Assembly: GCA_031119205.1 (NCBI GenBank)
Contig: JAVHYF010000008.1
Location: 1 to 64,000, forward strand
From: Moraxellaceae bacterium
GTDB taxonomy: Bacteria > Pseudomonadota > Gammaproteobacteria > Burkholderiales > Rhodocyclaceae
Direction of reading: 5' to 3'
Length of the DNA: 64,000 nucleotides
The first letter of the stretch is position 1. The number at the start of each line of letters is the position of its first letter. The notes under the pieces were generated by a model that saw only the letters and a program-made list of their open reading frames with translations, was not told the DNA's origin and did no database searches. The position numbers and the translations under genes are program-made. Positions 34,190 to 57,473 of this stretch are shown here, one piece after another.

Positions 34190-35022
34190 CCTAGGTCCTT
34201 CAGCAGCTGGCGCGCCAGTTGCTCGCGCCGGGGCGCCATCTCCACCGACGTCATGTCGACGTTGAGCGCGAACCAGGTGCGCCGCTCGCCACGTTCCACC
34301 CAACCTACATACCAGCCGATAGCCGGCTTTTCGTTGTCCCAGCCTGTCTTCGCGAACAGGCGGTAGCCATTCTTCTCCTCGCGCAGCATCACGCGCCGTC
34401 CGATCTCCAGCGTGCGTGCAGACACCGGCAGACGGCCCTCGTCGAGACGACGCAGGAACTCCACCTGTTCCACCGGCGAGATGCGCAGGTCACCGTCCAG
34501 CCAGAAGTTGTCCACCTTTGGTGTGATGGCTGCATTGCCGTAGCGGAAATCGCGCAGCGCCTGCTGCATGCGCGCATTGCCGACGCCACGCGCGATCTCC
34601 TGGTACGCCCACACCGCTGAGATGCGGAAGGCCTCGGTCAGGTCGAGGTCGCGGTTCCAGTCCTCCACCCAGCGCTTCTGGCCGTCCCACTTGTAGGCCT
34701 GCTTCTCGTCGCGCGCCACGCCGGTCTCCAGCGCGATCAGCGTGTTCGGGATCTTGAAGGTGGACGCCGGGCGGAAGCGCTGGAAGGCGCGCTTCGAATC
34801 CGCCGCTATCCAGCGACGGTCCTGGCTGTCCAGCACGACGAAGGTACCGCGCATGCCGCGCTCCTCGAAGCGCTTCAGCAAGGCGGGCTGGTCCTGCCAG
34901 GACTCGCTGCGGGCGGTACCCGCACCGGCGGACGCGATGGCGGGAGCAAGGGCAAGGTAGGTGCCGGATGTCGCCAGGAAAGCGGCGATGGCCAGTGAAC
35001 GGAACATCGGTGTGTGGAACAT
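34174..35022 (-). CDS. Class D (OXA-type) beta-lactamase
   Basis: 282 residues with a signal peptide (SLAIAAFLATSGTYLALAPA). Class D motifs are intact: S87-T-F-K90, SAV at 135-137, YGN at 161-163 and K225-T-G. K90 would be the carboxylated lysine. The enzyme should hydrolyse beta-lactams in the periplasm, but the spectrum cannot be read. Its 3' end overlaps norR. AAGGAG lies 11 bases before the ATG at 35022; a second ATG at 35007 is possible. No mobile element adjoins it, so it looks chromosomal and intrinsic. Confidence 0.9.
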   Translation of the reverse strand: MFHTPMFRSLAIAAFLATSGTYLALAPAIASAGAGTARSESWQDQPALLKRFEERGMRGTFVVLDSQDRRWIAADSKRAFQRFRPASTFKIPNTLIALETGVARDEKQAYKWDGQKRWVEDWNRDLDLTEAFRISAVWAYQEIARGVGNARMQQALRDFRYGNAAITPKVDNFWLDGDLRISPVEQVEFLRRLDEGRLPVSARTLEIGRRVMLREEKNGYRLFAKTGWDNEKPAIGWYVGWVERGERRTWFALNVDMTSVEMAPRREQLARQLLKDLGYLPE

Positions 35023-37749: not shown

Positions 37750-38142
37750 TCAGCTTGTCTCCAGCAATTCGACGATGCCGGTTCCGGTCTTGAAGAGGAA
37801 AGCGACACGCCGGATTTCGATGGCCGGCGCTTCGGCAGGCTCGGCGAGCACGATGAAGCCGCGCCCTTTCAAGCGGTCGATGCTGGCCACCAGATCCGGT
37901 GTCTCGTAGCAGAAGTGATAGGGCGTATTGCCCACCTTCTTGAGCAGGTTGCCGACGGGTGAGCGCTCATTCGCTGGCGCAACGAGTTCGATGACGTAGT
38001 CATCATTGCGCATGAACTGGATGTGGATATGGCGATGCTCGTCCAGGCAGCGTTCGCCGACCGGCGAGAAACCCAGGTCGAGGAAATCCGACAGGGCGAT
38101 GTCAATGTCGGCGACGGCATAGCCGACGTGGTGGACCTTCAT
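37750..38142 (-). CDS. VOC-family (glyoxalase/methylmalonyl-CoA epimerase-like) protein
   Basis: 130 residues. The N-terminus MKVHHVGYAVADIDIALSDF and the ending FKTGTGIVELLE are typical of the methylmalonyl-CoA epimerase-like VOC group, with metal-ligand candidates in HHVGYAV, the central HIHIQF and the final Glu. AAGGA seven bases upstream supports the start at 38142; the long frame above it is an antisense artefact. It diverges from the biosynthetic operon and shares its 237-base upstream region, so it may act in the same pathway. Confidence 0.85.
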   Translation of the reverse strand: MKVHHVGYAVADIDIALSDFLDLGFSPVGERCLDEHRHIHIQFMRNDDYVIELVAPANERSPVGNLLKKVGNTPYHFCYETPDLVASIDRLKGRGFIVLAEPAEAPAIEIRRVAFLFKTGTGIVELLETS

Positions 38143-38379: not shown

Positions 38380-40566
38380 ATGCAGCACGATCAATCGCGA
38401 TTCACCATCACCCTCACCGCGACCTTCACCGCCGGCCCGCTGCGCGAGCCGCTCGGCTTCTGGATGCATACGCTGGGCTTGCCCGCCGGCATCCAGGTGT
38501 CGCCGCTCAACCAGGTCTTCCAGCAACTGCTGGACCCGGCCAGTCCGGTCCGTCGCAACACGGGCGCGAATGTCGTGCTCGTAAGGCTCGACGACTGGTG
38601 TCGCATCGAAGAGGGCTTCGAGCAGGAAACCGGCGGCGGCACACGCGTCCGCGACAAGATCGCACGCAACGTCGACGAACTGGTCGACGCCGTGCGCAAG
38701 GCCGCCACGGCCAGCGCCGCGCCGTACATCGTGTGCTTCTGCCCGCAGTCGCCGGTGTTCACCGTCGACCCGGCGCACGACTTCGGCGACATCGTGCAAG
38801 GCGCGGTCGCCGCGTTGTCGGCGGTGGATGGCGTGCAGGTGCTGACCGCAGCGGACATCGCGCAGCAGTACCCGGTGGAAGACATCCACGACTTCCACGC
38901 CGACCGCCTCGGCCACATTCCCTACAAGCAGCCCTGGTTCGACGCACTCGCCACGATGCTGATGCGCCGCATCCGCGCACTGCGCGAAGCGCCGCGCAAG
39001 CTGGTGGTCCTGGATTGCGACAACACCCTGTGGCGCGGCGTACTCGCCGAAGACGACGCACTGGCGGTGGACGCCGCCCATGCGTACCTGCAGGAATTCA
39101 TGTTGCGCCAGCACGCCGACGGCACGCTGCTGGCGCTGTCCAGCAAGAACGAGGAGGCCGATGTGTGGCGCGTCTTCGACACGCTGCCCGGCATGCGCCT
39201 GACCCGCCAGCACATCGTCGCCCATCGCATCGGCTGGACCGACAAGGCCAGCGGCGTGCGTGCCCTGGCCAGCGAACTGGGACTGGGTCTGGACGCGGTG
39301 GTCTTCGTCGATGACAACCCGGTGGAGTGCGCGGCCGTCAGCGCCGGCTGCCCAGGCGTAGTCACGCTGTGTCTGCCGGCGCAGGCCGATGCGATCCCCG
39401 CCTTCCTGGACAACGCCTGGGTGTTCGACCGCGGCCCCGTGACGCAGGAAGATGCGCGCCGCAACGACATGTATCGCGAAGCCGCGCAGCGCACGCAGTA
39501 CCAGCAGCAGAGCGAGAGCTTCGAGACTTTCCTGCGCGGCCTCGACATGGTGGTGGATATCCGTCCGCTGGAAGCCGCCACACTGACCCGCGCCGCCCAG
39601 CTCGGCCAGCGCGTGAACCAGTTCAACCTCACCGGGCTGCGTCTGGACGAGGCGGCGCTGCAGGCACTTGCCGGCGAACCCCGCGGCCAGGTGCTGACGG
39701 TGGCCGTGCGTGACCGCTTCGGCGACTACGGCCTGGTCGGCCTGATGCTGTGTCGCGCCGACGGGCAGACCCTGGACGTGCTGAACCTGCTGCTGAGCTG
39801 CCGAGCGCTGGGCAAGGGTGTCGAGCACCGCATGCTGGCCGAGCTGGGACGGCGCGCGAGCGCCGCCGGCCTGTCCGGCGTGCACCTGAGCCTGCAGCCC
39901 AGCGAGCGCAACCAGCCGGCGCGGGACTTCCTGCACCAGGTGGCTGCACAGGTGGAACGCATCGATGGGGGCACGCACCACTACGACCTGACGGCCGCGA
40001 GCGCCGCCGCTGTGGACTTCCTCAACTTCATACAACAGGCGGCGCAGCCGCGCACTGCTGCCGCGACCGAAGTCGCCGCCAGCCCGGTCGCCACACCCAC
40101 CGCCGATGTGAGCAGCGATGCAGACCTGCACCAGCGCATCGCCACCGAGCTGGACAGCGCCCGCCGCATCCACGCTGCCGTGCTGGCGCACTGGCAGACA
40201 CGCCTCACCGGCGGTGCCGCACCACGCGCACGCGTCGCGCCGCGCACCGACACCGAGGCCGCGATCGCCACCATCTGGCGTGAGCTGCTCGACCTGGAGG
40301 ACCTCGGCGTCACCGACGACTTCTTCAGCCTCGGCGGCGAGTCCATCAAGGCGGTGCAGATCCTCGCGCGCATCCGCGAGCACTTCGGTGTCGAGCTGCC
40401 GATGACCGTGCTGTTCGCCGACAGCATCACCGTCGCGCGCCTCGCCGAGAAGGTCGACACCACCCTGCTCGAACAGGTGGACGCCAGCGCACTCGCGGCC
40501 GAGCTGGCCGCCATCGAGAACCTGTCGGAAGAAGAAATCGAGCGCCTGCTCGGCCAGGCCAGCTGA
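38380..40566 (+). CDS. FkbH-type HAD protein fused to an acyl/peptidyl carrier domain
   Basis: 728 residues; the start at 38380 follows GGGAG. Order: N-terminal FkbH-associated domain (about 1-190), HAD domain with D212-C-D-N-T (LVVLDCDNTLWRG), a GNAT-like C-terminal half of FkbH (VAVRDRFGDYGLVGLM), and a carrier domain with phosphopantetheine Ser655 in SLGGESIKAV. FkbH proteins load glyceryl units from 1,3-bisphosphoglycerate onto a carrier. Here the carrier is on the same chain, so it can charge itself. It starts the operon. No FkbG/FkbI-type modification genes are visible. Confidence 0.88.
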   Translation: MQHDQSRFTITLTATFTAGPLREPLGFWMHTLGLPAGIQVSPLNQVFQQLLDPASPVRRNTGANVVLVRLDDWCRIEEGFEQETGGGTRVRDKIARNVDELVDAVRKAATASAAPYIVCFCPQSPVFTVDPAHDFGDIVQGAVAALSAVDGVQVLTAADIAQQYPVEDIHDFHADRLGHIPYKQPWFDALATMLMRRIRALREAPRKLVVLDCDNTLWRGVLAEDDALAVDAAHAYLQEFMLRQHADGTLLALSSKNEEADVWRVFDTLPGMRLTRQHIVAHRIGWTDKASGVRALASELGLGLDAVVFVDDNPVECAAVSAGCPGVVTLCLPAQADAIPAFLDNAWVFDRGPVTQEDARRNDMYREAAQRTQYQQQSESFETFLRGLDMVVDIRPLEAATLTRAAQLGQRVNQFNLTGLRLDEAALQALAGEPRGQVLTVAVRDRFGDYGLVGLMLCRADGQTLDVLNLLLSCRALGKGVEHRMLAELGRRASAAGLSGVHLSLQPSERNQPARDFLHQVAAQVERIDGGTHHYDLTAASAAAVDFLNFIQQAAQPRTAAATEVAASPVATPTADVSSDADLHQRIATELDSARRIHAAVLAHWQTRLTGGAAPRARVAPRTDTEAAIATIWRELLDLEDLGVTDDFFSLGGESIKAVQILARIREHFGVELPMTVLFADSITVARLAEKVDTTLLEQVDASALAAELAAIENLSEEEIERLLGQAS

Positions 40567-40581
40567 CGCGGGGACCACGCC

Positions 40582-41931
40582 ATGAAGATCCTGCTCGCGC
40601 AGAACGCGTCCTATTGTCCGGCGCTGGGTGGCGCCAACCGCTCCAACCGCACGCTGCTGGAGTCACTGGCCCGCCTCGGCCATCACTGCGAGGTGGTCGC
40701 CACCGCCGTGCCCGGTGCGGAATCTGCACCGGGTGCCGGTTTCAGCGTGCTCGCCGACGACGGCGAGACACAGCTGATCGACTGCCAGGGCATCGCCGTG
40801 CACGCCGTTCGGGTGCGTGCCACACTGGACAGCGCGCGCCTGCGCAAGGTGTTGCTGGCGCGCATCGCCGCCTTCCAGCCGGACCGCGTGCTGGTGTCCA
40901 CCGAAGACGTCGGCCAGGTGCTGCTGGAGGCCGCCGTATCGCAGGACGCTGCACGCGTGGTCTATCTGGCGCGGACGACGCTGTACCTGCCCTTCGGCCC
41001 CGACTGCTTCGCACCCGCGCCGGAGCGCACCGCACTGCTGCACAAGGTGGGCGGCATCGCGGTGGTCGGCGACTACCTCAAGGACTACTTCCGCCAGCAC
41101 GCCGGACTGGACGCCGATGTGCTGCCGATCTCCCTGTTCGGCGAAGGTCCCTTCCCGGATTTCGGCAACTTCGAAGACGGCTTCGTCACGCTGGTGAACC
41201 CCTGCGCCTACAAGGGGCTGCCGATCTTCCTCGCGCTGGCGGACGCCTTCCCCACCGTGCGCTTCGCGGCCGTGCCCACCTGGGGCACCACCTCGGACGA
41301 TCTGCTCGCGATGAAGGCACGCCCCAACATCAGCGTGCTGGAACCGGTGGAAGACATGGACCGCCTGTTCGCCCGCAGCCGCGTGATGCTGGTGCCCTCA
41401 CTATGGGCGGAGGCCAAGTCGCGCACCATCGTCGAAGCCATGCTGCGCGGCATCCCGGTGATGGCCAGCGACGTCGGCGGCAACCCCGAAGCGAAGCTCG
41501 GCGTGGACTACGTGCTGCCGGTGAATCCGCTGCGCGGTTACCACGCTGCCTGCGACGAACGCAGCCTGCCGGTCGCCGACGTTCCGCCGCAGGATGTCGG
41601 CCCCTGGCGCGATGCACTCGCCCGGCTGCTCGGCGACCGCGCGCACTACGAGGAGGTATCGGCACGTTCGCGCCGCGCCGCGCACGACTACCTGGCCAGC
41701 CGCGGCGGCAGCGAACGCGTCGCAGCCTGGCTGGCGACGCTGCCGACGCGTGGCGTCCCGTCGGCAGTGCACACAGCCGGCGCGGCAGATCTGTCGCTGA
41801 CACCCCCACCCGGCAGCAGCGCCGCCTCTGTCTCCTCCCTCGCACAACTGAGCCCGGCACAACGTGCCCTGCTCGCCCAGCGACTGCGCCAGCGCAGCGC
41901 CGCCACACCGGACACCCCGAAAGATGAGTGA
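40582..41931 (+). CDS. GT4-like glycosyltransferase with C-terminal helix tag
   Basis: 449 residues. The GT-B-type glycosyltransferase body starts MKILLAQNASYCPALGGANR and has the family segment EAKSRTIVEAMLRGIPVMAS with the E-x7-E pattern. After the catalytic part (about 1-395) comes a Ser/Pro-rich linker, then residues 420-438 (LAQLSPAQRALLAQRLRQR), a short helix also seen in the NRPS and in the GT-A-like protein. It overlaps the NRPS gene by 8 bases and follows the FkbH gene by 15. Inferred role: adds a sugar to a carrier-bound intermediate or the product. Confidence 0.82.
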   Translation: MKILLAQNASYCPALGGANRSNRTLLESLARLGHHCEVVATAVPGAESAPGAGFSVLADDGETQLIDCQGIAVHAVRVRATLDSARLRKVLLARIAAFQPDRVLVSTEDVGQVLLEAAVSQDAARVVYLARTTLYLPFGPDCFAPAPERTALLHKVGGIAVVGDYLKDYFRQHAGLDADVLPISLFGEGPFPDFGNFEDGFVTLVNPCAYKGLPIFLALADAFPTVRFAAVPTWGTTSDDLLAMKARPNISVLEPVEDMDRLFARSRVMLVPSLWAEAKSRTIVEAMLRGIPVMASDVGGNPEAKLGVDYVLPVNPLRGYHAACDERSLPVADVPPQDVGPWRDALARLLGDRAHYEEVSARSRRAAHDYLASRGGSERVAAWLATLPTRGVPSAVHTAGAADLSLTPPPGSSAASVSSLAQLSPAQRALLAQRLRQRSAATPDTPKDE

Positions 41932-44900
41932 CGCCGCCGATCCGGCAACTGCGGCGGCCCGCCTGCAAGCCCTGACGCCACAACAGCGCGCCCTGCTCGC
42001 GCGCCGCCTCCAGCAATCACGCAGCGCCGGTAGCAGTGGCGACGGCGGCAATAGCGATAGCGCCAGCAATGCCATCGTCGCCCGCGACCGCAGCGCGACG
42101 CAGCGCTTCGCCACCTCGGCCGCACAGCGACGCTTCTGGCTCCTCGACCAGTGGAACCCCGGCTCGGCCACCTACAACCTGCATCTCGTCTCGCACCTTG
42201 CAGGCCCGCTGGACCAGGGTGCGCTGCAGGCGGCCTTCGACGCGATCCTGCGGCGGCACGAAGTGCTGCAGATGACCTATGCCCCCGCAGCCGGCACCGA
42301 CGATGGCGACGTTGTCTGCGTCCGGCATCCAGCGCCCGCCATCCCGATCGCGCATCGCACGCTCGACACGCCTGCGGGCACGGACACGGGTGCAGCAGTC
42401 GAAGCCTTCGTCCAGGCGGAGATCCGCCGGCCTTTCGACCTCGCCGCTGGCCTGCCCTGGCGTGTGACCTTGCTGGCGCTGTCGCCGACCGAGCACTACC
42501 TGATCGTGGTGATGCACCACATCGTCGGTGACATGTGGTCGCTGCGCATCCTCACGCGCGAGCTGGAAGCGCTCTACAACGCAGCCGTATCCGGCGTCGC
42601 ACATGAAGCACTGAGCAGCGCACTGCCGCCGTTGCCTGTGCAGTACATGGACTACGCCGACTGGCAGCGCGAACCCGCACAGCAGGCGCGCCTGTCCGCC
42701 CAGCTCGACTACTGGCGCGATACCCTGAACGGCGCTCCACCGCGACTCACACTGACCAGCGATTACCCGCGCCCCGTCGAACAAGGTTACCGCGGCGACA
42801 CGCTGGAGTTCGAGCTGCCCGCCTCGCTCAACGACGCCGTGCGCAGCGCTGCAGCCAGCGCGGCCACCACGCCCTTCGTCATCATGCTGTCGGCCTTCGC
42901 GCTGCTGATGGGCCGTCATGCGCGCAGCGAGGACGTGGTGATCGGCTCGCCGGTCGCCGGCCGCACGCAACGCGCGGTGGAAGACCTGATCGGCCTGTTC
43001 ATCAACACGCTGGCGCTGCGCGTGGACCTGTCCGGCGACCCGGACGTAGCGACGCTGTGGCAACGCGTGCGCGAGCGCGTTGCCGGCGCCATGGCCCACC
43101 AGGAGCTGCCCTTCGAGCGCGTCATCGAGGCCCTGCAGGTGGAGCGCGACCTGTCGTGCTCGCCCGTCTTCCAGGTGATGTTCAACTACCAGAGCATCAC
43201 CAAGACACCGTCGGCCTTGAAGGGACTGGAGGTCACGCCCTTCATGCGCCACAACGGCAGCACCAAGTTCGACCTCAACGTATCGGTCAAACAATTGCCG
43301 GACCGCCTGCTGTGCGCCATCACCTGGGACACCGCCCTGTTCCGGCCGGAGAGCATCGCGCGCATGGTGGATCACTTCCGCAATCTGCTGACGCAGATGA
43401 CCGCGCAACCGCAGGCCTCGCTGTCGTCGCTGGACATGCTGAGCGCCACCGAGCGCAGCGTGCTGCTCGATGACTGGTCCTGCGCGGAACGCCGCAGCCA
43501 CCCCGCAGGCAAGGCGCTGCATCACCTCTTCGAGGCACAGACGCGGGCACACCCCGGACGCACAGCGGTCGTCGCACAGGGGCGCCGGCTGCGCTACGAC
43601 GAACTGGACGCACGCGCCAACCAGCTTGCACACGCGCTCATCGCAGCAGGCGTGCAACGGGGTGATCGCGTCGGGCTGTTCATGTCCCGCTCCGCCGAAC
43701 TGCTGGTCGGCCTGCTCGGCATCCTGAAGGCGGGCGCCGCCTACGTGCCGCTGGACCCGCTGTTCCCGGCGGAACGCATCGGCCTGATCGTGGAGGATGC
43801 CGGCATCGCGCTGATGCTCACCGAGGTCGCGTTGCGTGATCGCGTCCCCGCCGGGCCGGACTGCCTGCTGCTGGACGAAGCAGGCAGCCGCGCACGCCTC
43901 GATGCGATGCCGTCCAGCGCGCCAGAGATTGCCTGCGCACCGGATGACCTGCTCTACATCCTCTACACCTCCGGCTCCACCGGGCGCCCCAAGGGCGTCG
44001 CCGTCGAACACGGTCACTACCTGCACTACTACCACGGCATCATGGCGCGCATGGCGCTGCCGGAGGGTCTGCGCTACGCCATCGCGTCCACCTTCGCCGC
44101 CGACCTCGCCACCATCAACGTGTGGGCCGCGCTCAGTACCGGCGGCGAGATCCACGTACTGAGCCATGACGAGGCGGTAGACCCGCTGCGCTACGCGACG
44201 TATTTCCGTACGCATGGCATCGACGTCATCAAGATGGTGCCGAGCCACTTCAAGGCGCTGATGGATGGCGCACCACTGGCCGACATCGTGCCGCGCCGCC
44301 TGCTGGTGCTGGCTGGCGAAGCCAGCGACTGGCCGCTGATTGAAACGATCCGCAGCGCCTGCCCGGACACCGCGCTGCAGATCCACTACGGCCCCACCGA
44401 AACCACCGTGTCGATGCTGGCCTACGCCGTGCCCGCCACGCGCCCGGTGCAGCACACCTCCACCCTGCCGCTCGGTCGCCCCATCGCCAACACCCGTATC
44501 TACGTGCTGGACGAGCGCCTGCAACCGGTGCCGGCCGGCGTGCCGGGCGAGCTGTGCATCGCCGGGCCGGGCGTCGCGCGCGGCTACCTCGGGCAGGCGG
44601 AGCTCACCGCGACGAAGTTCGTGGAGCTGCGTCTGCAGGGACGGGAGCCGGATCGCGTCTATCGCAGCGGCGACCTGGTGCGCTACCTGGACGACGGCGT
44701 CATCGAGTTCCTCGGGCGCGTGGACGAGCAGGTGAAGATCCGCGGCTTCCGTATCGAACCGGGCGAGATCGCCGCCACGCTGAAGAACCTGGCCAGCGTG
44801 CATGACGCCTTCGTGATGGCGCGGCCGGGCGACGATGGCCAGCTGCGGCTTATCGCGTGGGTGGTGCCGATGGCAGACAACGCATTCGACGCCGCGATGT

Positions 44901-47683
44901 TGCGCGCAGCGCTGGGCGAGCGCCTGCCGCCGTACATGCTGCCGTCCGCCTTCGTCGCGCTCGACGCCCTGCCACTCAACGCCAACGGCAAGGTGGACCG
45001 CGCCGCCCTGCCGGCACCGACGGACGCAGCACCCGCCGCCGGCTCGGCTCCGCCCGAAGGTGAAGCCGAGCAGCGGGTGGCCGCAGTGTGGGCCGAGGTG
45101 CTGGGGATCGGCGACCTCAGCGACATAGGCCGCGACGACGATTTCTTCTCCTTGGGGGGCGACTCCTTCAAGGCGGTGCGCGTGGTGCGCGGGCTGGGCC
45201 ACACGCTGAGCATCCTCGACGTGTTCCGCCACCCGACGGTGCGCGGACTCGCGAGCCTGCTGGCGGAGAGCCGCAGCGAAGCACGCGTGCTGCACCACCT
45301 GCCGCGTCGGGCGCCGGAGCATGCAGCAGGAGATGAGCCAGCTTCTCCACCGCTATCCGTCATCGCAGTGCCCTTCGCCGGCGGCTCCGCCATCGCCTAC
45401 CAGCCGCTGGCAGATGCGCTGCCGGCGCAGCACCGGCTGTACGCCGTACAGATTCCCGGCCACGACTTCAGCCGGCCGGACGACGCGCCGCAATCCATCG
45501 AGACGGTGGCGGAACGCTGCGTGCAGGAGTTCCTCGCCGACGCATCCGCGGCCGCAGGCAAGGTGGTGGTGTACGGTCACTGCCTGGGTGGCGCACTGGC
45601 GCTGGAGATCGCCACGCAACTGGAAGCCGCAGGCGTCGCACTCGTGGGCGTGTGCATGGGCGGCAACTTCCCGGTGCCGCAACTACCCGGCAAGCTCTTC
45701 CAGTGGTGGCAGCGCGTGTTTCCGCGCGACCGTCGCCTGTCCAACCGCGCCTACATGGACCTGCTGCGTTCGCTCGGCGGCTTCCAGGAAGACCTCGATC
45801 CGCGCGAGCGCGACTTCATCATCGAGAGCCTGCGCCACGACCGTCGCGAGAGCGAGCGCTACTTCGCCGCACGTTACGACGAAGCGCAGCCACGTCAGCT
45901 CCGCGCGCCGATCTTCTGCGTGGTCGGCGAGCTGGACCGCACCACCGAGTTCCACGGCGAGCAGGTGGACGACTGGCGCGCCTTCTCGCCGCAGGTGGAG
46001 CTGGCGGTGATCCCGAACGCCGGCCACTACTTCTTCAAGCACCAGGCGCGCGAACTGGCGGAACTGCTGCGGGACAAGACCGCAGCCTGGCTGGCCAGCC
46101 CATCGCCGGCCGGTGAGCTGAGGATGGCAGGCGCCACGCCGGCCACGGCAGCCGTGACGCTCGCGCCCGACGCATCACGCAAGCCAAGCCTGAACACCTT
46201 CTTCCTGTTCGTGCTCGGCCAGTTCATGTCGATGATGGGCTCGAACCTCAGCGGCTTCGCGATGGGCTTGTGGGTGTACAACCAGTCCGGCGCGTTCATG
46301 GACTTCGCGATGACGCTGGTCTTCCACCGCCTGCCCGGCATCCTGGTGCTGCCCTTCGCCGGTGCACTGGCGGACCGCGTGGACCGGCGCCAGATCCTGA
46401 TCTGGACCAACGTGTGCTCCGCCGTCGCCATGGCCGCGGTGGCCGCCACTTTCTGGCTGGCCACGCTGCACACCTGGCACATCTACCTGGTGGTCGCCAT
46501 CAGCTCGGTGGCCGCCGGCTTCCAGCGACCGGCAGTGCTGGCAGCGGTGGCGCAGATCGCCCCCAAGCGCTACCTCGGCCAGGCCAACGGCATCCTGCAA
46601 CTGGCGACGTCGTCCGGCAACGTGCTGGCACCGCTGCTCGGCGGCGTGCTGGTCACCATGGTGGACCTGGCCGGCATCATCCTGATCGACTTCCTGTCCT
46701 TCACGTTCTGCCTGCTCACGCTGCTGGCGATCCGCTTTCCGGCGGCCGCCTTCCGCCGTGCCGAGGAGCCTTTCTTCACCGAGATGGCCGGCGGCTGGCG
46801 CTTCATCGCCAAGCGCCGCAGCTTCGTCGCTCTGGTGGCGTTCTTCGTCGCCTCCAACCTGCTGCTGGGCATGGCCAACGTGCTCATCACGCCGCTTGTG
46901 CTGAGCTTCGATTCCACCGTGGTGCTCGGCATGGTGACGTCCGCCAACGGCATCGGCGGACTCATCGGCGGCATCGCGATGGGCCTGTGGGGCGGTACGC
47001 GGCGGCGCGCGGAAGGAATGGTCGGCTTCGGCGTGGTGATGGGCCTGTCCTACGTGGTGATGGGCCTGCAGCCGTCCGCCACGCTGGTCATGAGTGGCAT
47101 GTTCGCCTACGGCGTGTCGCTGGCGCTGGTGAACGCACACTGGCAGACGCTGATCCAGGCCAAGGTGCGCGCCGAGCTGCTGGGGCGTGTGTTCTCCATC
47201 AACCAGCTGTTCGCGCTGCCCAGCATTCCGCTCGGCTACTTCATCGGCGGCTGGTTGTCGGACCACGTCTTCAAGACGCTCTTCGTCGATCACCCCGCGC
47301 TGCAGTCAGCGCTGGGCTGGCTGGTCGGCAGCGGTGCGGACCGCGGCATCGGCCTGCTGTTCGTGCTGGTGGGGCTGGCCATGACCGCATGGAGCCTGCT
47401 CGGCATGCAGTACCGCCCGCTGCGCTACATGGACGACATCATCCCCGACGCCGTGCCCGGCCCGGTCTTCGTGCGTGACCGCGCGCAAATCCAGGCCAAC
47501 GAGGACCGCGAGCTGGCGCGCATCCGCGAGCGCACGCAGCACGTGCTGGACGGGCACGCCGCGACACGCAAACGAACAGGACAGGATGCATCCGGCAAAA
47601 GCGCAACGACGCGCACACCGGAAGCGTCATTCGACGACGAGCTGGAAGAAATACTGGAAGAAGGACTGGAGGCCACCCGATGA
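41924..47683 (+). CDS. NRPS (C-A-PCP-TE) fused to an MFS exporter
   Basis: 1919 residues. Order: helix tag (14-31); condensation domain about 55-490 with H198-H199-IVGD; adenylation domain about 530-1010 with YTSGSTGRPKG from Y681 and YGPTETT; carrier domain with Ser1081 in LGGDSFKAV; thioesterase about 1130-1370 with GHC1220LGG, so Cys replaces the usual Ser; then a 12-helix MFS domain from about 1420 to 1835, EntS-like in its opening (LGQFMSMMGSNLSGFAMGLW). The tail is acidic (DDELEEILEEGLEATR). A one-module NRPS carrying its own exporter is unusual. It overlaps genes on both sides, so translation is coupled. Confidence 0.92.
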   Translation: MSDAADPATAAARLQALTPQQRALLARRLQQSRSAGSSGDGGNSDSASNAIVARDRSATQRFATSAAQRRFWLLDQWNPGSATYNLHLVSHLAGPLDQGALQAAFDAILRRHEVLQMTYAPAAGTDDGDVVCVRHPAPAIPIAHRTLDTPAGTDTGAAVEAFVQAEIRRPFDLAAGLPWRVTLLALSPTEHYLIVVMHHIVGDMWSLRILTRELEALYNAAVSGVAHEALSSALPPLPVQYMDYADWQREPAQQARLSAQLDYWRDTLNGAPPRLTLTSDYPRPVEQGYRGDTLEFELPASLNDAVRSAAASAATTPFVIMLSAFALLMGRHARSEDVVIGSPVAGRTQRAVEDLIGLFINTLALRVDLSGDPDVATLWQRVRERVAGAMAHQELPFERVIEALQVERDLSCSPVFQVMFNYQSITKTPSALKGLEVTPFMRHNGSTKFDLNVSVKQLPDRLLCAITWDTALFRPESIARMVDHFRNLLTQMTAQPQASLSSLDMLSATERSVLLDDWSCAERRSHPAGKALHHLFEAQTRAHPGRTAVVAQGRRLRYDELDARANQLAHALIAAGVQRGDRVGLFMSRSAELLVGLLGILKAGAAYVPLDPLFPAERIGLIVEDAGIALMLTEVALRDRVPAGPDCLLLDEAGSRARLDAMPSSAPEIACAPDDLLYILYTSGSTGRPKGVAVEHGHYLHYYHGIMARMALPEGLRYAIASTFAADLATINVWAALSTGGEIHVLSHDEAVDPLRYATYFRTHGIDVIKMVPSHFKALMDGAPLADIVPRRLLVLAGEASDWPLIETIRSACPDTALQIHYGPTETTVSMLAYAVPATRPVQHTSTLPLGRPIANTRIYVLDERLQPVPAGVPGELCIAGPGVARGYLGQAELTATKFVELRLQGREPDRVYRSGDLVRYLDDGVIEFLGRVDEQVKIRGFRIEPGEIAATLKNLASVHDAFVMARPGDDGQLRLIAWVVPMADNAFDAAMLRAALGERLPPYMLPSAFVALDALPLNANGKVDRAALPAPTDAAPAAGSAPPEGEAEQRVAAVWAEVLGIGDLSDIGRDDDFFSLGGDSFKAVRVVRGLGHTLSILDVFRHPTVRGLASLLAESRSEARVLHHLPRRAPEHAAGDEPASPPLSVIAVPFAGGSAIAYQPLADALPAQHRLYAVQIPGHDFSRPDDAPQSIETVAERCVQEFLADASAAAGKVVVYGHCLGGALALEIATQLEAAGVALVGVCMGGNFPVPQLPGKLFQWWQRVFPRDRRLSNRAYMDLLRSLGGFQEDLDPRERDFIIESLRHDRRESERYFAARYDEAQPRQLRAPIFCVVGELDRTTEFHGEQVDDWRAFSPQVELAVIPNAGHYFFKHQARELAELLRDKTAAWLASPSPAGELRMAGATPATAAVTLAPDASRKPSLNTFFLFVLGQFMSMMGSNLSGFAMGLWVYNQSGAFMDFAMTLVFHRLPGILVLPFAGALADRVDRRQILIWTNVCSAVAMAAVAATFWLATLHTWHIYLVVAISSVAAGFQRPAVLAAVAQIAPKRYLGQANGILQLATSSGNVLAPLLGGVLVTMVDLAGIILIDFLSFTFCLLTLLAIRFPAAAFRRAEEPFFTEMAGGWRFIAKRRSFVALVAFFVASNLLLGMANVLITPLVLSFDSTVVLGMVTSANGIGGLIGGIAMGLWGGTRRRAEGMVGFGVVMGLSYVVMGLQPSATLVMSGMFAYGVSLALVNAHWQTLIQAKVRAELLGRVFSINQLFALPSIPLGYFIGGWLSDHVFKTLFVDHPALQSALGWLVGSGADRGIGLLFVLVGLAMTAWSLLGMQYRPLRYMDDIIPDAVPGPVFVRDRAQIQANEDRELARIRERTQHVLDGHAATRKRTGQDASGKSATTRTPEASFDDELEEILEEGLEATR

Positions 47684-48588
47684 GCGCGCACGACAAGACC
47701 CGCTTCAACCTGATGACCGTGCTGAACGGCGACTACTTCGACTTCGGCAAGGTGTTCGTCAATTCCTTCTACGACAACATCGACCGCTCGCGGGTGAACA
47801 AGCTCTACGTGTACGACACCGGGCTGGACGACGCGGCGCGCCGCTTCCTGTCCGCCTTCCCCGACCTGGAAGTGGTGGGCACGCATCTCAACACCCGCCA
47901 CCTGATGCTGCACGACGAGGACTGGCGCCGGAACGTCTACTCCAAGACCGCCTTCCTGCAGCAGGTGGTGGACCGCGACCGCCTGCCTACCATCATGGTC
48001 GACTCCGACTGCCTGTTCCTGCGGGACTTCTTCGACCTCATTCCGACCGACCGCGATTTCGTGGCCTGCCGCCGGCGCGACGTGGATGCCTTCAGCGAGT
48101 ACATCGCCTCCTTCTTCGTCATCAACGCGGTGGACCGCGCCGCCGCGATGATCCAGGAATGGCGTGACGAGATGCTCTACGGCACCGAGAACCACAAGGA
48201 AAGCCCCGCACTGACCCGCGTCATCGCACGCGGCGCGCACGACTTCGCCGACATGGACGAGGACGTCATCTCCTACACCGGCACGCAGATCGACGACAGC
48301 GTGAAGATCGTGCACATGAAATCCAGCGCCACGCTGCGCACCGTCGCGCAACGCATCCATCAGCCCTGCCTGGCGGAATACAACGCGCGCTATTTCAGCG
48401 ATGTGCCCATCGTCGTGCGCGGCACCGAACGGGAAGCCGCGTTCATCGACGCCGGTCTGGCACTGCCACACGCCGCCGCGCAGGCTCCGGTCCTGTCTGC
48501 CGCCGAACGTCTGGCCGATCAACTCAGCAAGGTCACGCCGCAACAACGCGCCCTGCTGCTCAAGCGCCTGGGCCGCAGCAGCGACTGA
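47680..48588 (+). CDS. GT-A-like nucleotide-sugar transferase with C-terminal helix tag
   Basis: 302 residues, starting in an ATGA overlap with the NRPS stop. It resembles GT8/GT77-type transferases: N-terminal FNLMTVLNGDYFDFGKVFVN and a D108-S-D110 metal motif in MVDSDCLFLRDF. The C-terminal residues 278-298 (LADQLSKVTPQQRALLLKRL) repeat the helix tag of the NRPS N-terminus and the GT4-like protein. The donor and acceptor cannot be read. Position and tag imply action on the assembly-line product. Confidence 0.75.
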   Translation: MSAHDKTRFNLMTVLNGDYFDFGKVFVNSFYDNIDRSRVNKLYVYDTGLDDAARRFLSAFPDLEVVGTHLNTRHLMLHDEDWRRNVYSKTAFLQQVVDRDRLPTIMVDSDCLFLRDFFDLIPTDRDFVACRRRDVDAFSEYIASFFVINAVDRAAAMIQEWRDEMLYGTENHKESPALTRVIARGAHDFADMDEDVISYTGTQIDDSVKIVHMKSSATLRTVAQRIHQPCLAEYNARYFSDVPIVVRGTEREAAFIDAGLALPHAAAQAPVLSAAERLADQLSKVTPQQRALLLKRLGRSSD

Positions 48589-48598
48589 TGTCGGACTG

Positions 48599-49435
48599 AT
48601 GTCGTTAAGCCCGGCCATGCCAGTCAGCCTTGCGGACCGCAGGGAGATGGCAACAGACACATCTGCGGTGCACGACGCGGTCCACGTCTGGTTCTTCGAG
48701 GTACCGCAGGCTGGCGGCGACGGTGACGCAGCATTGCACGAATGGTCCGCGCTGCTGGATGCCGACGAGCGCCAGCACGCGGAAAGGCTGCGTCGTCCGG
48801 CTGACCGCTGCCTGTACATCGCTGCGCACGGCCTGTTGCGCCAGCTACTCGGCCACTTTTCGGGCGAGCCGCCGGCTTCGCTGCGCTTCAGTCGCTGTGC
48901 CAACGGCAAACCACGCCCGGTACAGACGCAACAGCCGTACAGGGAGCCGGCGCTGCATTTCAACCTGTCGCATTCCCATCGCGGCGTGGCCGTGGCGCTG
49001 TCCGCAGCTGGCGAGGTCGGCGTGGATATCGAGCGCATCCAGCCCGGGCTGGACATCGACAGCCTGGCACCACTGACGCTCCACCGTGATGAACAGCGTC
49101 AGCTCGGGATGCTGGACCCCACCGCCCGCAGCACAGCCTTCTTCCGCGCGTGGACCTGCAAGGAGGCGTGGTTGAAGGCACAGGGCGTCGGGTTGTCGGG
49201 TTCGCTCACCAGCCTGTCAGTGGTAGCGGTAGCGCCCGGCATCTCCGATAACGCCAACGCCTCGCGCACCACAATCCTGCGGGATGCGGCAGGCAACCAC
49301 TGGCCGATCGCTACGCACAGGATCGTGCTGGCCGGCGAGCCCTATGCGCTGGCAGTGGCAGCACCCGCCCTGCCCCATCTCCCTGTTGTCTGGCACTCGA
49401 CGCTACCGGCCGCCATCTCCGCCACGCCTGCCTGA
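48599..49435 (+). CDS. 4'-phosphopantetheinyl transferase, Sfp type
   Basis: 278 residues from 48599; 48617 is also possible, as neither start has a strong ribosome site. Key motifs: FNLSHSHRGVAVAL, GVDIERI and FFRAWTCKEAWLKAQGVGL. It would transfer phosphopantetheine to Ser655 of the FkbH-carrier protein and Ser1081 of the NRPS, completing the operon. It begins 10 bases after the preceding stop. Confidence 0.9.
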   Translation: MSLSPAMPVSLADRREMATDTSAVHDAVHVWFFEVPQAGGDGDAALHEWSALLDADERQHAERLRRPADRCLYIAAHGLLRQLLGHFSGEPPASLRFSRCANGKPRPVQTQQPYREPALHFNLSHSHRGVAVALSAAGEVGVDIERIQPGLDIDSLAPLTLHRDEQRQLGMLDPTARSTAFFRAWTCKEAWLKAQGVGLSGSLTSLSVVAVAPGISDNANASRTTILRDAAGNHWPIATHRIVLAGEPYALAVAAPALPHLPVVWHSTLPAAISATPA

Positions 49436-49598: not shown

Positions 49599-51050
49599 AT
49601 GGACGGACATATCTGCGGCCCCGGCTGCACGCACGGCGTCACCCCGGAGAACGAAGGCGAGATCAAGGAGGAGTTCCACACCGCGCGGCGCAGCTTCCTG
49701 CGCGACGCGATGGTGATGGGTGGCAGCGCCATGTCCATCGGCGCGCTGGGCGTGTCGATGTCGCCCGCCGCTTTCGCGCAGAGCGCGCAGCCCGGTTCCG
49801 GCATGACCAAGCACTTCTACATTCCGGCCCACGCCAACACCGTGCTGTGGGGCTACTTCAGCAAGTCGGCCAAGCCGGTGGTGGAGGTGGACTCCGGCGA
49901 CTACGTCACCATCGAGACCCTGACCCACCATGCCAACGACGACGCCGAGCGCATGGTGAAGGGCGATGCCGGTGCAGAGAGCGTCTTCTACTGGGACAAG
50001 CAGAAGAAGAACGTGAACCGTCGGGGCGCAGGCCCGATGGATGCCAAGGTGGGCGCCGGGGGCGGCGAGGGCGTGCACGTGTGCACCGGCCCGGTGTTCA
50101 TCAAGGGTGCGGAACCCGGCGACATCCTGGAAGTGCGCATCATCGACGTGGTGCCCCGCCCCAGCGGCAACCCGGCATACAAGGGCAAGTCCTTCGGCAG
50201 CAATGCCGCCGCCAACTGGGGCTTCCACTACGGCGACACGCTGACCGAGCCGAAGAAGCGCGAAGTCATCACCATCTACGAGGTGGACGCCACCGGCGAG
50301 CGCAACTGGGCACGCGCGCTGTACAACTACCGCTGGACGCCGCAGACCGACCCCTTCGGCATCGTGCACCCCACCATCGACTATCCCGGCGTGCCGGTGG
50401 ACCACAGGACCATCACCAAGAACGAGAACGTGCTGAAGAACATCCGCATCCCTGTGCGGCCGCACTTCGGCACCATGGGCGTGGCGCCGGCGGAAGCCGA
50501 GTTCGTCACCTCCATTCCGCCCAACTACACCGGCGGCAACATCGACAACTGGCGCATCGGCAAGGGCGCCACGCTGTACTACCCGGTGGCGGTGAAGGGC
50601 GCGATGTTCTCGGTGGGCGATCCGCACGCCTCGCAAGGCGACTCCGAGCTTTGTGGCACCGCCATCGAGTGCTCGCTGACCGGCACCTTCCAGCTCATCC
50701 TGCACAAGAAGAACAGCCTGCCCGGCACGCCGCTGGCCGACCTGCAGTACCCGCTGCTGGAAACGCAGGACGAATGGCTGCTGCACGGCTTCAGCTACGC
50801 CAACTACCTGGCCGAGCTGGGCCCCAAGGCGCAGAGCGAGATCTACAGCAAGTCCTCGGTCGACAAGGCGCTGCGCGACGCGTACCACAAGATGCGCCAC
50901 TTCCTGATGACCACCCAGGGCCTCAGCGAGGACGAGGCGATCTCGCTGATGTCCATCGCGGTGGACTTCGGCATCACGCAGGTGGTGGATGGCAACTGGG
51001 GTGTTCATGCGGTGGTGAAGAAGAGCATCTTCCCGGCGCGGGGGGCCTGA
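49599..51050 (+). CDS. Tat-exported acetamidase/formamidase family protein
   Basis: 483 residues, preceded by GAGAGGAAGCGAC. An unusual Cys-containing N-terminus (MDGHICGPGCTHGVTPENEG) is followed by a twin-arginine signal (ARRSFLRDAMVMGG, ending AAFA). The FmdA-type catalytic body follows (ANTVLWGYFSKSAKPV, VDSGDYVTIETLTHHA, NRRGAGPMDAK, YRWTPQTDPFG, HASQGDSELCGTAIEC). The family hydrolyses short amides to acid and ammonia. Most homologues are cytoplasmic, so export is notable. Closely similar to the enzyme half of the next gene. Confidence 0.88.
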   Translation: MDGHICGPGCTHGVTPENEGEIKEEFHTARRSFLRDAMVMGGSAMSIGALGVSMSPAAFAQSAQPGSGMTKHFYIPAHANTVLWGYFSKSAKPVVEVDSGDYVTIETLTHHANDDAERMVKGDAGAESVFYWDKQKKNVNRRGAGPMDAKVGAGGGEGVHVCTGPVFIKGAEPGDILEVRIIDVVPRPSGNPAYKGKSFGSNAAANWGFHYGDTLTEPKKREVITIYEVDATGERNWARALYNYRWTPQTDPFGIVHPTIDYPGVPVDHRTITKNENVLKNIRIPVRPHFGTMGVAPAEAEFVTSIPPNYTGGNIDNWRIGKGATLYYPVAVKGAMFSVGDPHASQGDSELCGTAIECSLTGTFQLILHKKNSLPGTPLADLQYPLLETQDEWLLHGFSYANYLAELGPKAQSEIYSKSSVDKALRDAYHKMRHFLMTTQGLSEDEAISLMSIAVDFGITQVVDGNWGVHAVVKKSIFPARGA

Positions 51051-51392
51051 GCCGGACGATGGGGCGCCCTGCGGGCTTTCGCATGTGCGATGGGTGCGGC
51101 AGTTTGCGGTCCGGAAGGTGCAGGGAAATGCGATGGCCACCCACCGCGTTTCCCTCGCGAACCGCAGAGCAGATTGCGTGACGCCGACGGTGGGTTGCTT
51201 CGCGAACCCACCCTACGCCCTCCGGACAGGCCGCAGACGTGCGTACGGCGAGGCCCGTAGGGTGGGTTCGGACGAGGTTGGCAAGTACAGCGACAACCCA
51301 CCGCCGCCCTCTCGCGAACCGCAAATGAAACCGCGATACGAAGACTCCAGCCCGCACACCACCCCTGGCACGGCACTGGCTTGTCTCACGCC
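51051..51392. other. Intergenic region with a GTAGGGTGGGTT-type inverted repeat
   Basis: No gene seen in 342 bases. GAACCCACCCTACG (51204-51217) and its exact complement CGTAGGGTGGGTTC (51256-51269) form a 14-bp inverted repeat 38 bases apart. More half-copies surround it (GGTGGGTTG at about 51189, CAACCCACCG at about 51295). This looks like a dispersed intergenic repeat, not a terminator. Confidence 0.55.
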
Positions 51393-53909
51393 ATGATCCT
51401 CAACGACATCCGCCGCTTCTCCACCAGCGCCTATCCGGAAGAACTGCGCCAGTCCGCGTGGTCGGAGGTGCTGGCGCGGCTGCTGCTCGCCAACGAGCCG
51501 GCACCGCGTGGCCAGGCGGCGCTGAGCGGCCACGTGTCAGCCTGCAGCTCCGCCTTCGACTCGGTGTTCGCGCAGCTCGCCTCGTCGCCACAGGTACTGT
51601 TGCCGCTGGCCGATGGTGCCCACGACCATGCACGCAGCAAGCACGCCGGCACGGTCCTGGTGCTGGCACTGCAGGCCGGCCACGGCACGCTGACCGACAC
51701 CCAGCAGGCGGACGCCAGCCCGGTGAGCATCCATGCCGGCGACATCATGCTGCTGGACCCGGCGCAGGCCTGGCGCATCGAGCTGCACACCGACTTCCGC
51801 GCCATGCTGGTCAAGCTGGAGTCCGCCAGCTTCGTGCTGCGCCTGGTGCGCACCGGCGCGCAGGAGCTCAACCGTATCTCCACCCGCGTCGGCGTCGGCG
51901 CGGTGTGCCTCAGCCTCATCCAGTCGGTGGCCGACGAGCTGGCCTACATCGGCCGCGACGAACTGCCACCCATCGAGGCCACGCTGATCGAGCTACTGGT
52001 CACCTGCCTGTCGCACAAGAGCCAGGACGCGCAGGAACAGGCCGAGCCCGAGGACACCAACCCGGACACCACCTCGGTGCAGCTCGCCCACCTGCGCCGC
52101 GTGTGCCGCACGCTGGAGTCCCGACTCGGCGACGCCGAACTGCAGATCGACGAGATCGCACGGCTGGAGGGCCTGTCCACCCGGTACATCCAGAAGCTGT
52201 TCAAGGCGGGCGCCACCAGCTTCACCGAGTACCTCAAGTCGCGCCGCCTGGAGCGCTGCCGGCTGGACCTCGGCAACCCGGCGCTGGCGCACTTCAGCAT
52301 TTCCGAGCTGTGCTACCGCTGGGGCTTCAGCGATGCCGCCAACTTCAGCCGCGCCTTCTCGGCACGCTTCGGCCAGTCGCCCAAGGCTTATCGCGCCGCA
52401 CCGCCGAAGGACATCGAGGAACAATTGCGTCGCGGCCGCCCGGCGCAGACCAGCAGCACGACCGCCACGCCGGTGGACAGGTCGGCCCCTGCGCCCGACG
52501 ACACCCGCCGCCAGTTCCAGAACCTGCTGAGCGACCACGCCCGCTATGCCATCGCACTGGCGCTGTCGCCCAAGCGCGCCGCGCCGCCTTCACACGCCAC
52601 ACAGCATCCGGCCACCGAAGAACACCAGCCACCACCCGGCCACTACTACCTGCCGGTGTCGGCGAAGACGGTGCACTGGGGCTACTTCAGTCGCAGCATC
52701 AAACCTGTGCTGGCCGTGCATTCCGGCGACATCGTCACCATCGAGACGCTGACCCAGCACGCCACCGACGACTGCGAGCGCATGATCGCCGGCGACCCCG
52801 GCGCCGAGAGCGTGTTCCACTGGACCGCCGACAAGAAGGCGGTGGACCGGCGCGGTGCCGGGCCGATGGATGCCTCCATCTACGGTCGCGGTGCCGGCGA
52901 AGGCTTCGGCGTGCACATCTGCACCGGCCCGGTGTATGTGCAGGGCGCGGAGCCCGGCGACGTGCTGGAGGTGCGCATCCTCGACATCCAGCCACGACCC
53001 AGCCGCCACCCCGAACATGAAGGCCGGCTGTACGGCAGCAACGCCGCCGCGTGGTGGGGCTTCCAGTACAACGACCTGCTGACCGAGCCGAAGAAGCGCG
53101 AGGTCATCACCGTGTACGAGATCCACCACGGCCACGACCACCCGCACGCCAAGGCCGTCTACAACTACCGCTGGACGCCGCAGACCGACCCCTTCGGCAT
53201 CCGCCACGACACCATCGACTACCCCGGCGTGCCGGTGGACCACACCACCATCGCCAAGCAGTTCGGCGTGCTGGAAAAAGCCGTGGTGCCGGTGCGCCCG
53301 CACTTCGGCGTGCTGGCCGTGGCACCGCGCGAGAAAGGCATGGTGGACTCCATTCCGCCGAGCTACTTCGGCGGCAACCTCGACAACTGGCGTGCCACCA
53401 AGGGTGCACGCCTGTTCCTGCCGGTGGCGGTGGACGGCGCGCTGTTCTCGGTGGGCGACCCGCACGCCTCGCAAGGCGACGCCGAGGCCTGCGGCACCGC
53501 CATCGAATGCTCGCTCACCGGTGTGTTCCAGCTGGTGCTGCACAAGAAGGCCGCGCTCGCCGACAGCTTCCTGTCCGAGCTGGACTACCCCTTCCTCGAC
53601 ACGCCGGACGAGTGGGTGCTGCAAGGCCTCAGCTACCCCGACTACCTAGCCGAACTCGGCCCGCACGCACAGACGCAGGTGTACAAGAAGTCCTCGCTGG
53701 AAGCCGCCATGCGCGACGCCTTCCACAAGGCCCGCCACTTCCTGATGAAGGCCCACCAGTTGAGCGAGGACGAAGCCATCTCGCTCATCTCGGTGGCGGT
53801 GGACTTCGGCATCACCCAGGTGGTGGACGGCAACCTCGGCGTGCACGCGGTGATCCGCAAGGCGGTGTTCCCGGAACACAGCGGGGAGCTGACGCCGGGG
53901 GCGGGTTGA
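51393..53909 (+). CDS. AraC-type regulator fused to an acetamidase/formamidase
   Basis: 838 residues from the ATG at 51393 (a TTG at 51381 would add four). N-terminal part about 1-215 is the AraC-binding-like ligand region (LLDPAQAWRIELHTDFRAML). Residues about 230-335 are the AraC double HTH (IDEIARLEGLSTRYIQKLFK, ISELCYRWGFSDAANFSRAF). A linker follows, then a complete FmdA-like enzyme from about 415 (VHWGYFSRSIKPVLAVHSGD, DRRGAGPMDAS, RWTPQTDPFG). The frame is uninterrupted. It may be a trigger enzyme that senses amides by binding or hydrolysing them and regulates the exported paralogue upstream. Confidence 0.9.
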   Translation: MILNDIRRFSTSAYPEELRQSAWSEVLARLLLANEPAPRGQAALSGHVSACSSAFDSVFAQLASSPQVLLPLADGAHDHARSKHAGTVLVLALQAGHGTLTDTQQADASPVSIHAGDIMLLDPAQAWRIELHTDFRAMLVKLESASFVLRLVRTGAQELNRISTRVGVGAVCLSLIQSVADELAYIGRDELPPIEATLIELLVTCLSHKSQDAQEQAEPEDTNPDTTSVQLAHLRRVCRTLESRLGDAELQIDEIARLEGLSTRYIQKLFKAGATSFTEYLKSRRLERCRLDLGNPALAHFSISELCYRWGFSDAANFSRAFSARFGQSPKAYRAAPPKDIEEQLRRGRPAQTSSTTATPVDRSAPAPDDTRRQFQNLLSDHARYAIALALSPKRAAPPSHATQHPATEEHQPPPGHYYLPVSAKTVHWGYFSRSIKPVLAVHSGDIVTIETLTQHATDDCERMIAGDPGAESVFHWTADKKAVDRRGAGPMDASIYGRGAGEGFGVHICTGPVYVQGAEPGDVLEVRILDIQPRPSRHPEHEGRLYGSNAAAWWGFQYNDLLTEPKKREVITVYEIHHGHDHPHAKAVYNYRWTPQTDPFGIRHDTIDYPGVPVDHTTIAKQFGVLEKAVVPVRPHFGVLAVAPREKGMVDSIPPSYFGGNLDNWRATKGARLFLPVAVDGALFSVGDPHASQGDAEACGTAIECSLTGVFQLVLHKKAALADSFLSELDYPFLDTPDEWVLQGLSYPDYLAELGPHAQTQVYKKSSLEAAMRDAFHKARHFLMKAHQLSEDEAISLISVAVDFGITQVVDGNLGVHAVIRKAVFPEHSGELTPGAG

Positions 53910-54252: not shown

Positions 54253-56382
<2,130 letters not shown>

Positions 56383-56558
56383 TCAGCACTAGTAGATATT
56401 TGCCAGCACCTGTGGGACGGAACACAAGGACATGCAAGCAATACGATTCCATGCATAGATTTGGCAGTACGTGCCAAGCAGGAAAAGGTGTACGCAACGA
56501 GCAGAACGGCAAGGGCTACTCAGAAGCGTAATTCAGCCATACCAACCATTGCTCCCAA

Positions 56559-56825: not shown

Positions 56826-56879
56826 GTTTACCTCTTTCCTTTGGTTAGTCCGTCAGCCAAGCGGGTCTTGCCTTTTTCC

Positions 56880-56935: not shown

Positions 56936-56944
56936 ACGTCCCTT

Positions 56945-57395: not shown

Positions 57396-57473
57396 TAAGC
57401 CCCCTACTAAGCCCTATAAGCATGGGGACCCGAAGCCCGACCCCCGAGGCCTCGGCATCTTCATCTACAAGCC

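Follow-up and report, generated by a model that had tools for sequence, protein, structure and literature searches.

The operon and its gene products

The window analysed here, a 64,000-nt stretch of contig JAVHYF010000008.1 (assembly GCA_031119205.1), carries at 38380-49435 an operon of five genes, all on the + strand, centred on a nonribosomal peptide synthetase (NRPS) that continues in the same frame through a thioesterase (TE) domain into a major facilitator superfamily (MFS) exporter domain. In gene order the operon encodes an FkbH-peptidyl carrier protein (PCP) loader (728 aa; 38380-40566), a GT4-family glycosyltransferase (GT) of 449 aa (40582-41931), the NRPS-exporter, with the layout condensation (C)-adenylation (A)-PCP-TE-MFS (1919 aa; 41924-47683), a putative GT-A-fold, GT8-like transferase (302 aa; 47680-48588), and an Sfp/HetI-type 4'-phosphopantetheinyl transferase (48599-49435, with 48617 and 48647 as other possible starts). 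The first two genes are 15 bp apart, the end of the GT4 gene and the start of the NRPS gene share 8 bp, the GT-A-like start overlaps the NRPS stop by 4 bp, and the last spacing is 10 bp if the Sfp-type gene begins at 48599. A sequence-only reading of this DNA had placed the same five coupled genes at these positions, and Pfam and NCBIfam profile searches bear it out.

The loader comprises an FkbH domain (38995-39954, +; TIGR01686 278.9 bits, NCBIfam cut-off 146.65), a PCP (40261-40449, +; PF00550 59.3 bits), and an acidic C-terminal tail (about 40474-40563, +) that ends in LSEEEIERLL. The motifs DCDNT, SSKN, DDNP, and SCRALGKG are all present, and we take their roles to be those of the FkbH family, whose members load a glyceryl unit from 1,3-bisphosphoglycerate; the loader is predicted to do the same. 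Both PF13692 (43.4 bits, cut-off 27) and PF00534 match the GT4 above cut-off, and no solved relative was found at E 0.01. The GT-A-like protein reaches 22.2 bits with PF03407 (cut-off 22) and has a DxD motif (48001-48009) that is invariant in 4/4 aligned copies; its low-confidence model (mean predicted local distance difference test score [pLDDT] 55.9) retrieves LgtC and glycogenin first in Foldseek, and by sequence the single match to solved structures (E 0.75) carries no weight. The Sfp-type transferase matches PF01648 (56.9 bits, cut-off 25) and PF22624, and scores 111.8 with the HetI model, below its cut-off of 370; phosphopantetheinylation is its expected role from the Sfp family.

In the 1919-aa frame PF00668, PF00501/PF13193, PF00550, PF00975, and PF07690 all score above cut-off, and the C, A, PCP, and TE domains follow in order with their active-site motifs, which makes the protein a single-module NRPS. 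The C domain (42110-43465, +; PF00668 328 bits) has the active-site motif HHIVGDM, which keeps HHxxxD and has Met for the final Gly of HHxxxDG. The A domain (43529-44992, +; PF00501, PF13193, TIGR01733) has the pocket code DLIKVAHVSK, mapped by hand from an alignment; we take it to be nearest to Asp-type codes, a likeness by which the amino acid is not assignable. Codes of the form DL(T/I/L)K(I/V)A(H/N)V(S/A)K occur in 50 of 85 TE-MFS rows, two being partly mapped and the rest of other types. The PCP of the NRPS lies at 45071-45262 (+; PF00550 45.4 bits).

The MFS domain (46190-47410, +) bears out the full 12-helix exporter that the sequence-only reading had placed in one uninterrupted frame. 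An AlphaFold2 model of TE-MFS built with 47 sequences (mean pLDDT 89.2) has twelve membrane-length helices behind the TE, counted by eye, and Foldseek places MdfA, NorA, and the vesicular monoamine transporters among the nearest folds of the MFS part. Twelve transmembrane helices, motif A (GALADRVDRR), and fold are those of DHA1 drug:H+ antiporters; the H+ antiporter-type model TIGR00900 nonetheless scores below its cut-off (191.8 and 319.6 bits), and PF05977 also matched. Such antiporters export their substrates at the expense of the proton gradient, and the direction and substrate class of the fused domain would be those of the family.

The fused exporter and its relatives

The TE-MFS fusion is neither an error nor unique. 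Both domains lie within one open frame in 86/86 related loci, a set that combines the best 80 of 331 stretches found with the TE-MFS alignment in 84,980 species genomes, three plasmid records, and three further Paenibacillus-group genomes; fetched with TE-MFS or MFS queries (GT-A-like for the three Paenibacillus-group genomes), the set proves the fusion real and gives no fusion rate. A frameshift or assembly error merging two genes, which the sequence-only reading had named as its own refutation, is excluded by these loci; nothing was found in its favour, and its probability is practically nil. The rarity which that reading implied finds no support, the best 80 of the 331 stretches all being fused. 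No model for the fusion was among the best 25 of 124 NCBIfam families listed.

By record title, 66 of the best 80 stretches are from actinomycetes; the other 14 are from Paenibacillus, Herpetosiphon, other Chloroflexota, one Clostridia metagenome-assembled genome (MAG), and one Spirochaetes MAG. Closer to home, no long TE-MFS frame beyond the window's own genome was found among the matches listed in 150 relatives, in 395 family genomes, or in 398 phylum genomes (overlapping sets, the latter two each with four genomes having an MFS match at E 1e-30, the own genome included). The long frame measures 1943 aa in the own genome, and the other family and phylum matches at that threshold are frames of 445-577 aa; vertical inheritance was rejected because the own genome stands alone among these matches in having the long frame. 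In a tree of 47 TE-MFS rows the window is sister to Paenibacillus algorifonticola (100/100 support; TE-MFS 65% identical), and because this grouping crosses phyla the operon was probably acquired horizontally.

Among 51 genomes from the P. algorifonticola genus, that of this species included, four have the GT-A-like gene (57-58% identical), and these share the order VOC | FkbH-PCP, GT4, C-A-PCP-TE-MFS, GT-A, GHMP kinase, sugar nucleotidyltransferase. Between window and Paenibacillus operons the MFS domain is the most conserved part (73% identity), followed by TE (60-62%), GT4 (59-60%; 38-39% in Herpetosiphon), A (54-56%), C (48-49%), and FkbH (43-44%). In NCBIfam the Paenibacillus kinase is nearest to galactokinases and the nucleotidyltransferase falls among sugar nucleotidyltransferases, the former under the galactokinase cut-offs and the latter under all cut-offs shown. 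A kinase and nucleotidyltransferase pair of this kind can make a nucleoside-diphosphate sugar, which supports glycosylation; together with the FkbH motifs and the GT4 beside a carrier, it lends support to the glyceryl-aminoacyl, possibly glycosylated, product of the sequence-only reading.

Three features go beyond that reading: a Cys-type TE, matching terminal helices, and a VOC gene. The VOC/glyoxalase-family protein (130 aa; 37750-38142, -; PF13669 64.6 bits) is divergent from the operon and is counted to the unit because a divergent relative (55-59% identical) holds the same place in 4/4 Paenibacillus operons. It was considered and rejected as a methylmalonyl-CoA epimerase (TIGR03081 47.5 bits, cut-off 114.95). 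Self-protection is one guess for its role, made because VOC proteins include antibiotic-binding resistance proteins. A further gene adjoins the VOC gene in 4/4 Paenibacillus-group operons; the one copy scanned is of the pectate lyase family (PF06917), which has no match in the window.

A second type of operon, found at seven loci, has an A-PCP loader in place of FkbH-PCP, followed by GT4 and C-A-PCP-TE-MFS; four are from Herpetosiphon, two from Paenibacillus, and one from an Anaerolineales MAG with broken frames. The GT-A-like gene was not found in the three genomes of this type that were searched.

Carriers, terminal helices and the thioesterase

In the loci where both GT4 and TE-MFS were found (the window and 12 others), the GT4 stands beside a carrier, and the loader is of three kinds: FkbH-PCP (the window and four Paenibacillus operons), A-PCP (seven loci), or a discrete PCP with E1-alpha, E1-beta, and E2 genes (one locus). 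The A-PCP loaders have the code DASTVAAVCK (in 5/7 one position is unmapped), which we take to be Tyr-type. The third kind is found in Micromonospora sp. NBRC 107566 (locus L115, 12615-17391), where PCP, GT4, E1-alpha, E1-beta, and E2 lie behind the TE-MFS NRPS; this set presumably resembles those for glycolyl-acyl carrier protein (ACP) formation. In its own right it may be a way to make a hydroxyacyl unit that carries sugar. Each loader plausibly gives an acyl group with a free hydroxyl (glyceryl, Tyr-type, or glycolyl-like), and because the GT4 stands beside carriers so loaded, glycosylation on the carrier is proposed; we give even odds that the GTs act on a carrier-bound substrate.

The termini of these proteins suggest how such a meeting might be arranged. 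The NRPS begins with LTPQQRALLARRL, in which a basic helix, LQALTPQQRALLARRLQQ (41963-42016, +), is assumed from the sequence; the GT4 ends with LSPAQRALLAQRL, whose basic helix, LAQLSPAQRALLAQRLRQ (41839-41892, +), is identical to the NRPS head at 12 of 18 positions, a score reached by 0/200 shuffles. The GT-A-like protein likewise ends with a basic helix, VTPQQRALLLKRL (48514-48570, +), in which RALLLKRL sits behind a variable linker and is invariant in 4/4 aligned copies. Across 11 loci (about five lineages) the GT4 tail matches the NRPS head better than 200/200 shuffles in ten, and net charge follows one pattern in all 11, loader tails being negative and NRPS heads and GT4 tails positive; GT-A tails are positive in 4/4. 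At L115 the discrete PCP has an acidic tail and the following GT4 a related basic one. A C-terminal pattern, written from the GT4 and GT-A tails of these operons and missing some of them, has 15 matches in 951 non-overlapping open reading frames (ORFs) from 87 sequences, all of them GT4 or GT-A proteins of TE-MFS operons. Similarity and opposite charge would fit docking of the communication-mediating (COM) type, in which an acceptor helix binds a donor tail.

Beyond TE-MFS operons, GT4 relatives were met in plasmids at E 1e-25 in three records (two inspected, the third a near copy of one by listing), and the GT-A-like protein in none at E 1e-5. Two GT4 relatives, one from Niveispirillum and one from an FkbH/ACP cluster of Streptomyces, lack the tail, and neither has such an NRPS nearby. 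A plasmid of Streptomyces sp. NBC_00441 (12560-18261) combines an ACP, two glycosyltransferases, a thioesterase, FkbH-PCP, and sugar-nucleotide genes; it gave no match to a TE-MFS NRPS.

The TE (45359-46075, +) has its best solved relative by sequence in ObiF1 (E 5.9e-40), the next being at E 3e-12. In a pairwise alignment with ObiF1 (6n8e; E 8.8e-41) YGHC pairs with YGHC and the triad Asp and His pair as well, which gives Cys1220 in GHCLG, Asp1338, and His1368, with Gly1247 at position I. In the 47 aligned rows the nucleophile is Cys in 46, preceded by His in 46; position I is Gly in 30, Ala in 17, and Asp in none, position II is Asp in all, and the catalytic His is present in all, a conservation that is partly by construction and so counts for less, the His lying within one of the two locus-finding patterns (Cys and Asp lie outside them). 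A GxCxG nucleophile and an Asp at position II with none at position I are the marks of an ObiF1-type TE. The sole row with Ser in place of Cys is L121, whose A-domain code we take to be Lys-like. In ObiF1 a Cys to Ser change reportedly converts cyclisation into hydrolysis. Foldseek ranks ObiF1 first for the TE, with SulM in the top 50 and the type II thioesterases RedJ, RifR, TesA, and YbtT also among its structural neighbours. ObiF1 uses the Cys/Asp/His triad to close a beta-lactone (PMC6668435), the SulM TE uses the same arrangement to close a beta-lactam (PMC11298585), and RifR and RedJ also have Asp at position II (PMC11298585). Because RifR and RedJ share this Asp position and are fold neighbours, ring closure is best worded with care: the TE may release its product in this way, at somewhat less than an even chance.

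Proposed mechanism and comparison with known systems

The best overall explanation, on which we are evenly divided, is that the product made and exported is a small glyceryl-amino acid that carries sugar; taken by itself, export of a glyceryl-NRPS product by the fused domain is very probable. FkbH would dephosphorylate 1,3-bisphosphoglycerate and place the glyceryl unit on its own PCP. Both glycosyltransferases, GT4 and GT-A-like, would use C-terminal helices that mimic the N-terminal helix of the NRPS to dock on the loader carrier or on the NRPS line, and would add sugar to a hydroxyl while the acyl group is carrier-bound. The C domain would then couple a single amino acid, selected and activated by the A domain, with the (glycosyl-)glyceryl unit, the ObiF1-type TE would free the product, probably through intramolecular ring closure, and the antiporter-like domain would expel it at once by direct hand-over. 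In its most specific form this is a make-cyclise-export machine, in which a ring-closing Cys-TE fused to an antiporter would keep a reactive lactone- or lactam-like product out of the cytosol and GTs would reach carrier-bound acyl groups by means of a copied NRPS acceptor helix that serves as a tag with three loaders (glyceryl, Tyr-type, and 2-oxoacid-dehydrogenase-type acyl); that all of this holds together is rather unlikely.

A number of observations weigh against this reading. The code DLIKVAHVSK fixes no ring-closing nucleophile; since the nearest codes are, as we take them, Asp-type, and Asp is without a beta-nucleophile, closure might have to use the glyceryl unit. Other TE-MFS loci carry codes that we take to be Ser-, Orn-, and Lys-type, and because the tails go with several code types members of the TE-MFS family may differ in product type. 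The GT4 was found in only 12/86 TE-MFS loci within the flanks examined (9/80 and the three others), so that a TE-MFS tail does not imply glycosylation, and a GT4 relative in Niveispirillum has no carrier match within the 25 kb scanned. The GT-A-like protein is modelled with a mean pLDDT of only 55.9. At one locus (L073) 6/200 shuffles reach the tail score, and the window's GT4 tail scores 69 with a Herpetosiphon head and 55 with its own; lineage-matched GT tails are therefore not general, and the absence of lineage specificity speaks against strict co-evolution. The Sfp-type gene was not matched in the four Paenibacillus operons, and a search of the window's own genome for a GHMP sugar kinase, made without a positive control, gave no match.

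Hydrolytic release, in which the Cys-TE would give a linear glycosyl-glyceryl-amino acid for export and the likeness to ObiF would reflect type-II-like descent, is a substantial though doubtful possibility. The four type II enzymes among the structural neighbours fit it, as does the Asp at position II of RifR and RedJ (PMC11298585). So do the many A-domain codes with which TE-MFS tails occur and the failure to recognise genes for a beta-hydroxylase or for diaminopropionate in the operon or, by eye from ORF starts, beside four related loci; no dedicated precursor genes of any kind were recognised there by the same inspection, made by eye on ORF starts without a library scan. The sequence score with ObiF1 is, however, far above that of any type II enzyme, and the Cys is kept in 46/47 rows, whereas type II thioesterases have a Ser nucleophile as a rule. 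It is somewhat unlikely that the GTs act on the free product or another acceptor and that their helical tails, left over from the splitting or duplication of neighbouring genes, have no part in docking. A copied 5' end is easily imagined for a GT4 gene directly before the NRPS, the tails lack lineage specificity, and two GT4 relatives have none; but the GT-A-like gene, which lies after the NRPS, still keeps RALLLKRL behind its variable linker in 4/4 copies, the carrier-GT4 pair of L115 has its acidic and related basic tails behind the NRPS and not before it, and the 15 pattern matches all fall on GT4 or GT-A proteins, from which the pattern was written. That the MFS domain is chiefly a membrane anchor for the synthetase or an importer of a substrate, with another pump exporting the product, is quite improbable. 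The direction of an MFS protein is not revealed by its sequence, and stand-alone MFS relatives exist in family and phylum; the TIGR00900 (below cut-off) and PF05977 matches and the MdfA and NorA folds speak for export, as do the conservation of the domain (73%, against 43-44% for FkbH) and the absence of any other transporter gene seen inside the operon.

Self-protection from a reactive product is a suggested reason for the TE-MFS fusion, and the Cys-TE fused to an MFS domain offers a search handle for at least 86 NRPS loci of an architecture not found described. If the tail model is true, it would provide a short, portable tag for recruiting GTs to carrier-bound intermediates.

Elsewhere in the window, a class D beta-lactamase-like ORF (34174-35022, -; 282 aa, PF00905, class by eye) lies about 3 kb from the operon, with no sign of belonging to it. 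An AraC-type regulator and an acetamidase/formamidase domain share one 842-aa frame (51381-53909, +), adjoined by a stand-alone FmdA_AmdA protein (49599-51050). The G+C content is 0.557 at 56001-58000 and 0.637-0.707 in the other 2-kb steps; a short ORF resembling, by eye, a REP-type transposase fragment (56943-57314, -) lies inside the low-G+C step.

The sequence-only reading is partly supported, and it had named many characterised homologues of the same layout with a known product as a second ground for its refutation; homologues of the same layout are many, and none with a known product came to light in searches of the open-access literature. Among the matches listed there, no description of a TE-MFS fusion protein was recognised, subscription journals being mostly outside the scope. 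Every part of the operon has known kin, and the combination of FkbH loader, tailed GTs, and Cys-TE-exporter was not met in these searches of the open-access literature, an absence that is weak evidence.

The obafluorin synthetase ObiF (ObiF1), like the NRPS of the window, has a condensing module that terminates in a Cys-TE whose positions I and II are Gly and Asp. ObiF uses 2,3-dihydroxybenzoate (2,3-DHB) as acyl group and beta-OH-p-NO2-homoPhe as amino acid and has an MbtH-like protein (MLP) domain, whereas the acyl group of the window would be glyceryl; no MFS domain or transporter is mentioned in the available part of PMC6668435, whereas the TE of the window is fused to one. The sulfazecin SulM TE also has a Cys nucleophile, Asp at position II, and a matching fold, and it closes a strained ring (PMC11298585, available text); it has Gln-Cys-Asn in a two-module protein where the window has His-Cys-Leu, and that text likewise mentions no MFS domain or transporter.

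The actinomycete TE-MFS NRPSs, such as those of Streptomyces clavuligerus pSCL4 and Embleya, have the same one-frame C-A-PCP-TE-MFS tail in NRPS clusters larger than the operon of the window, and scans of three actinomycete plasmid loci gave no match to FkbH or to a GT. The Herpetosiphon and Paenibacillus A-PCP operons (L046-L050, L058) share the layout, the GT4 tails, and the TE-MFS protein, and differ in the loader, which is A-PCP with a presumed Tyr-type code instead of FkbH. FkbH-type glyceryl loading is known from the zwittermicin, FK520, and oocydin pathways, with which the window has the FkbH domain in common; here that domain is fused to its PCP, the glyceryl unit would pass to the C domain of an NRPS with one module, and GTs adjoin the carrier.

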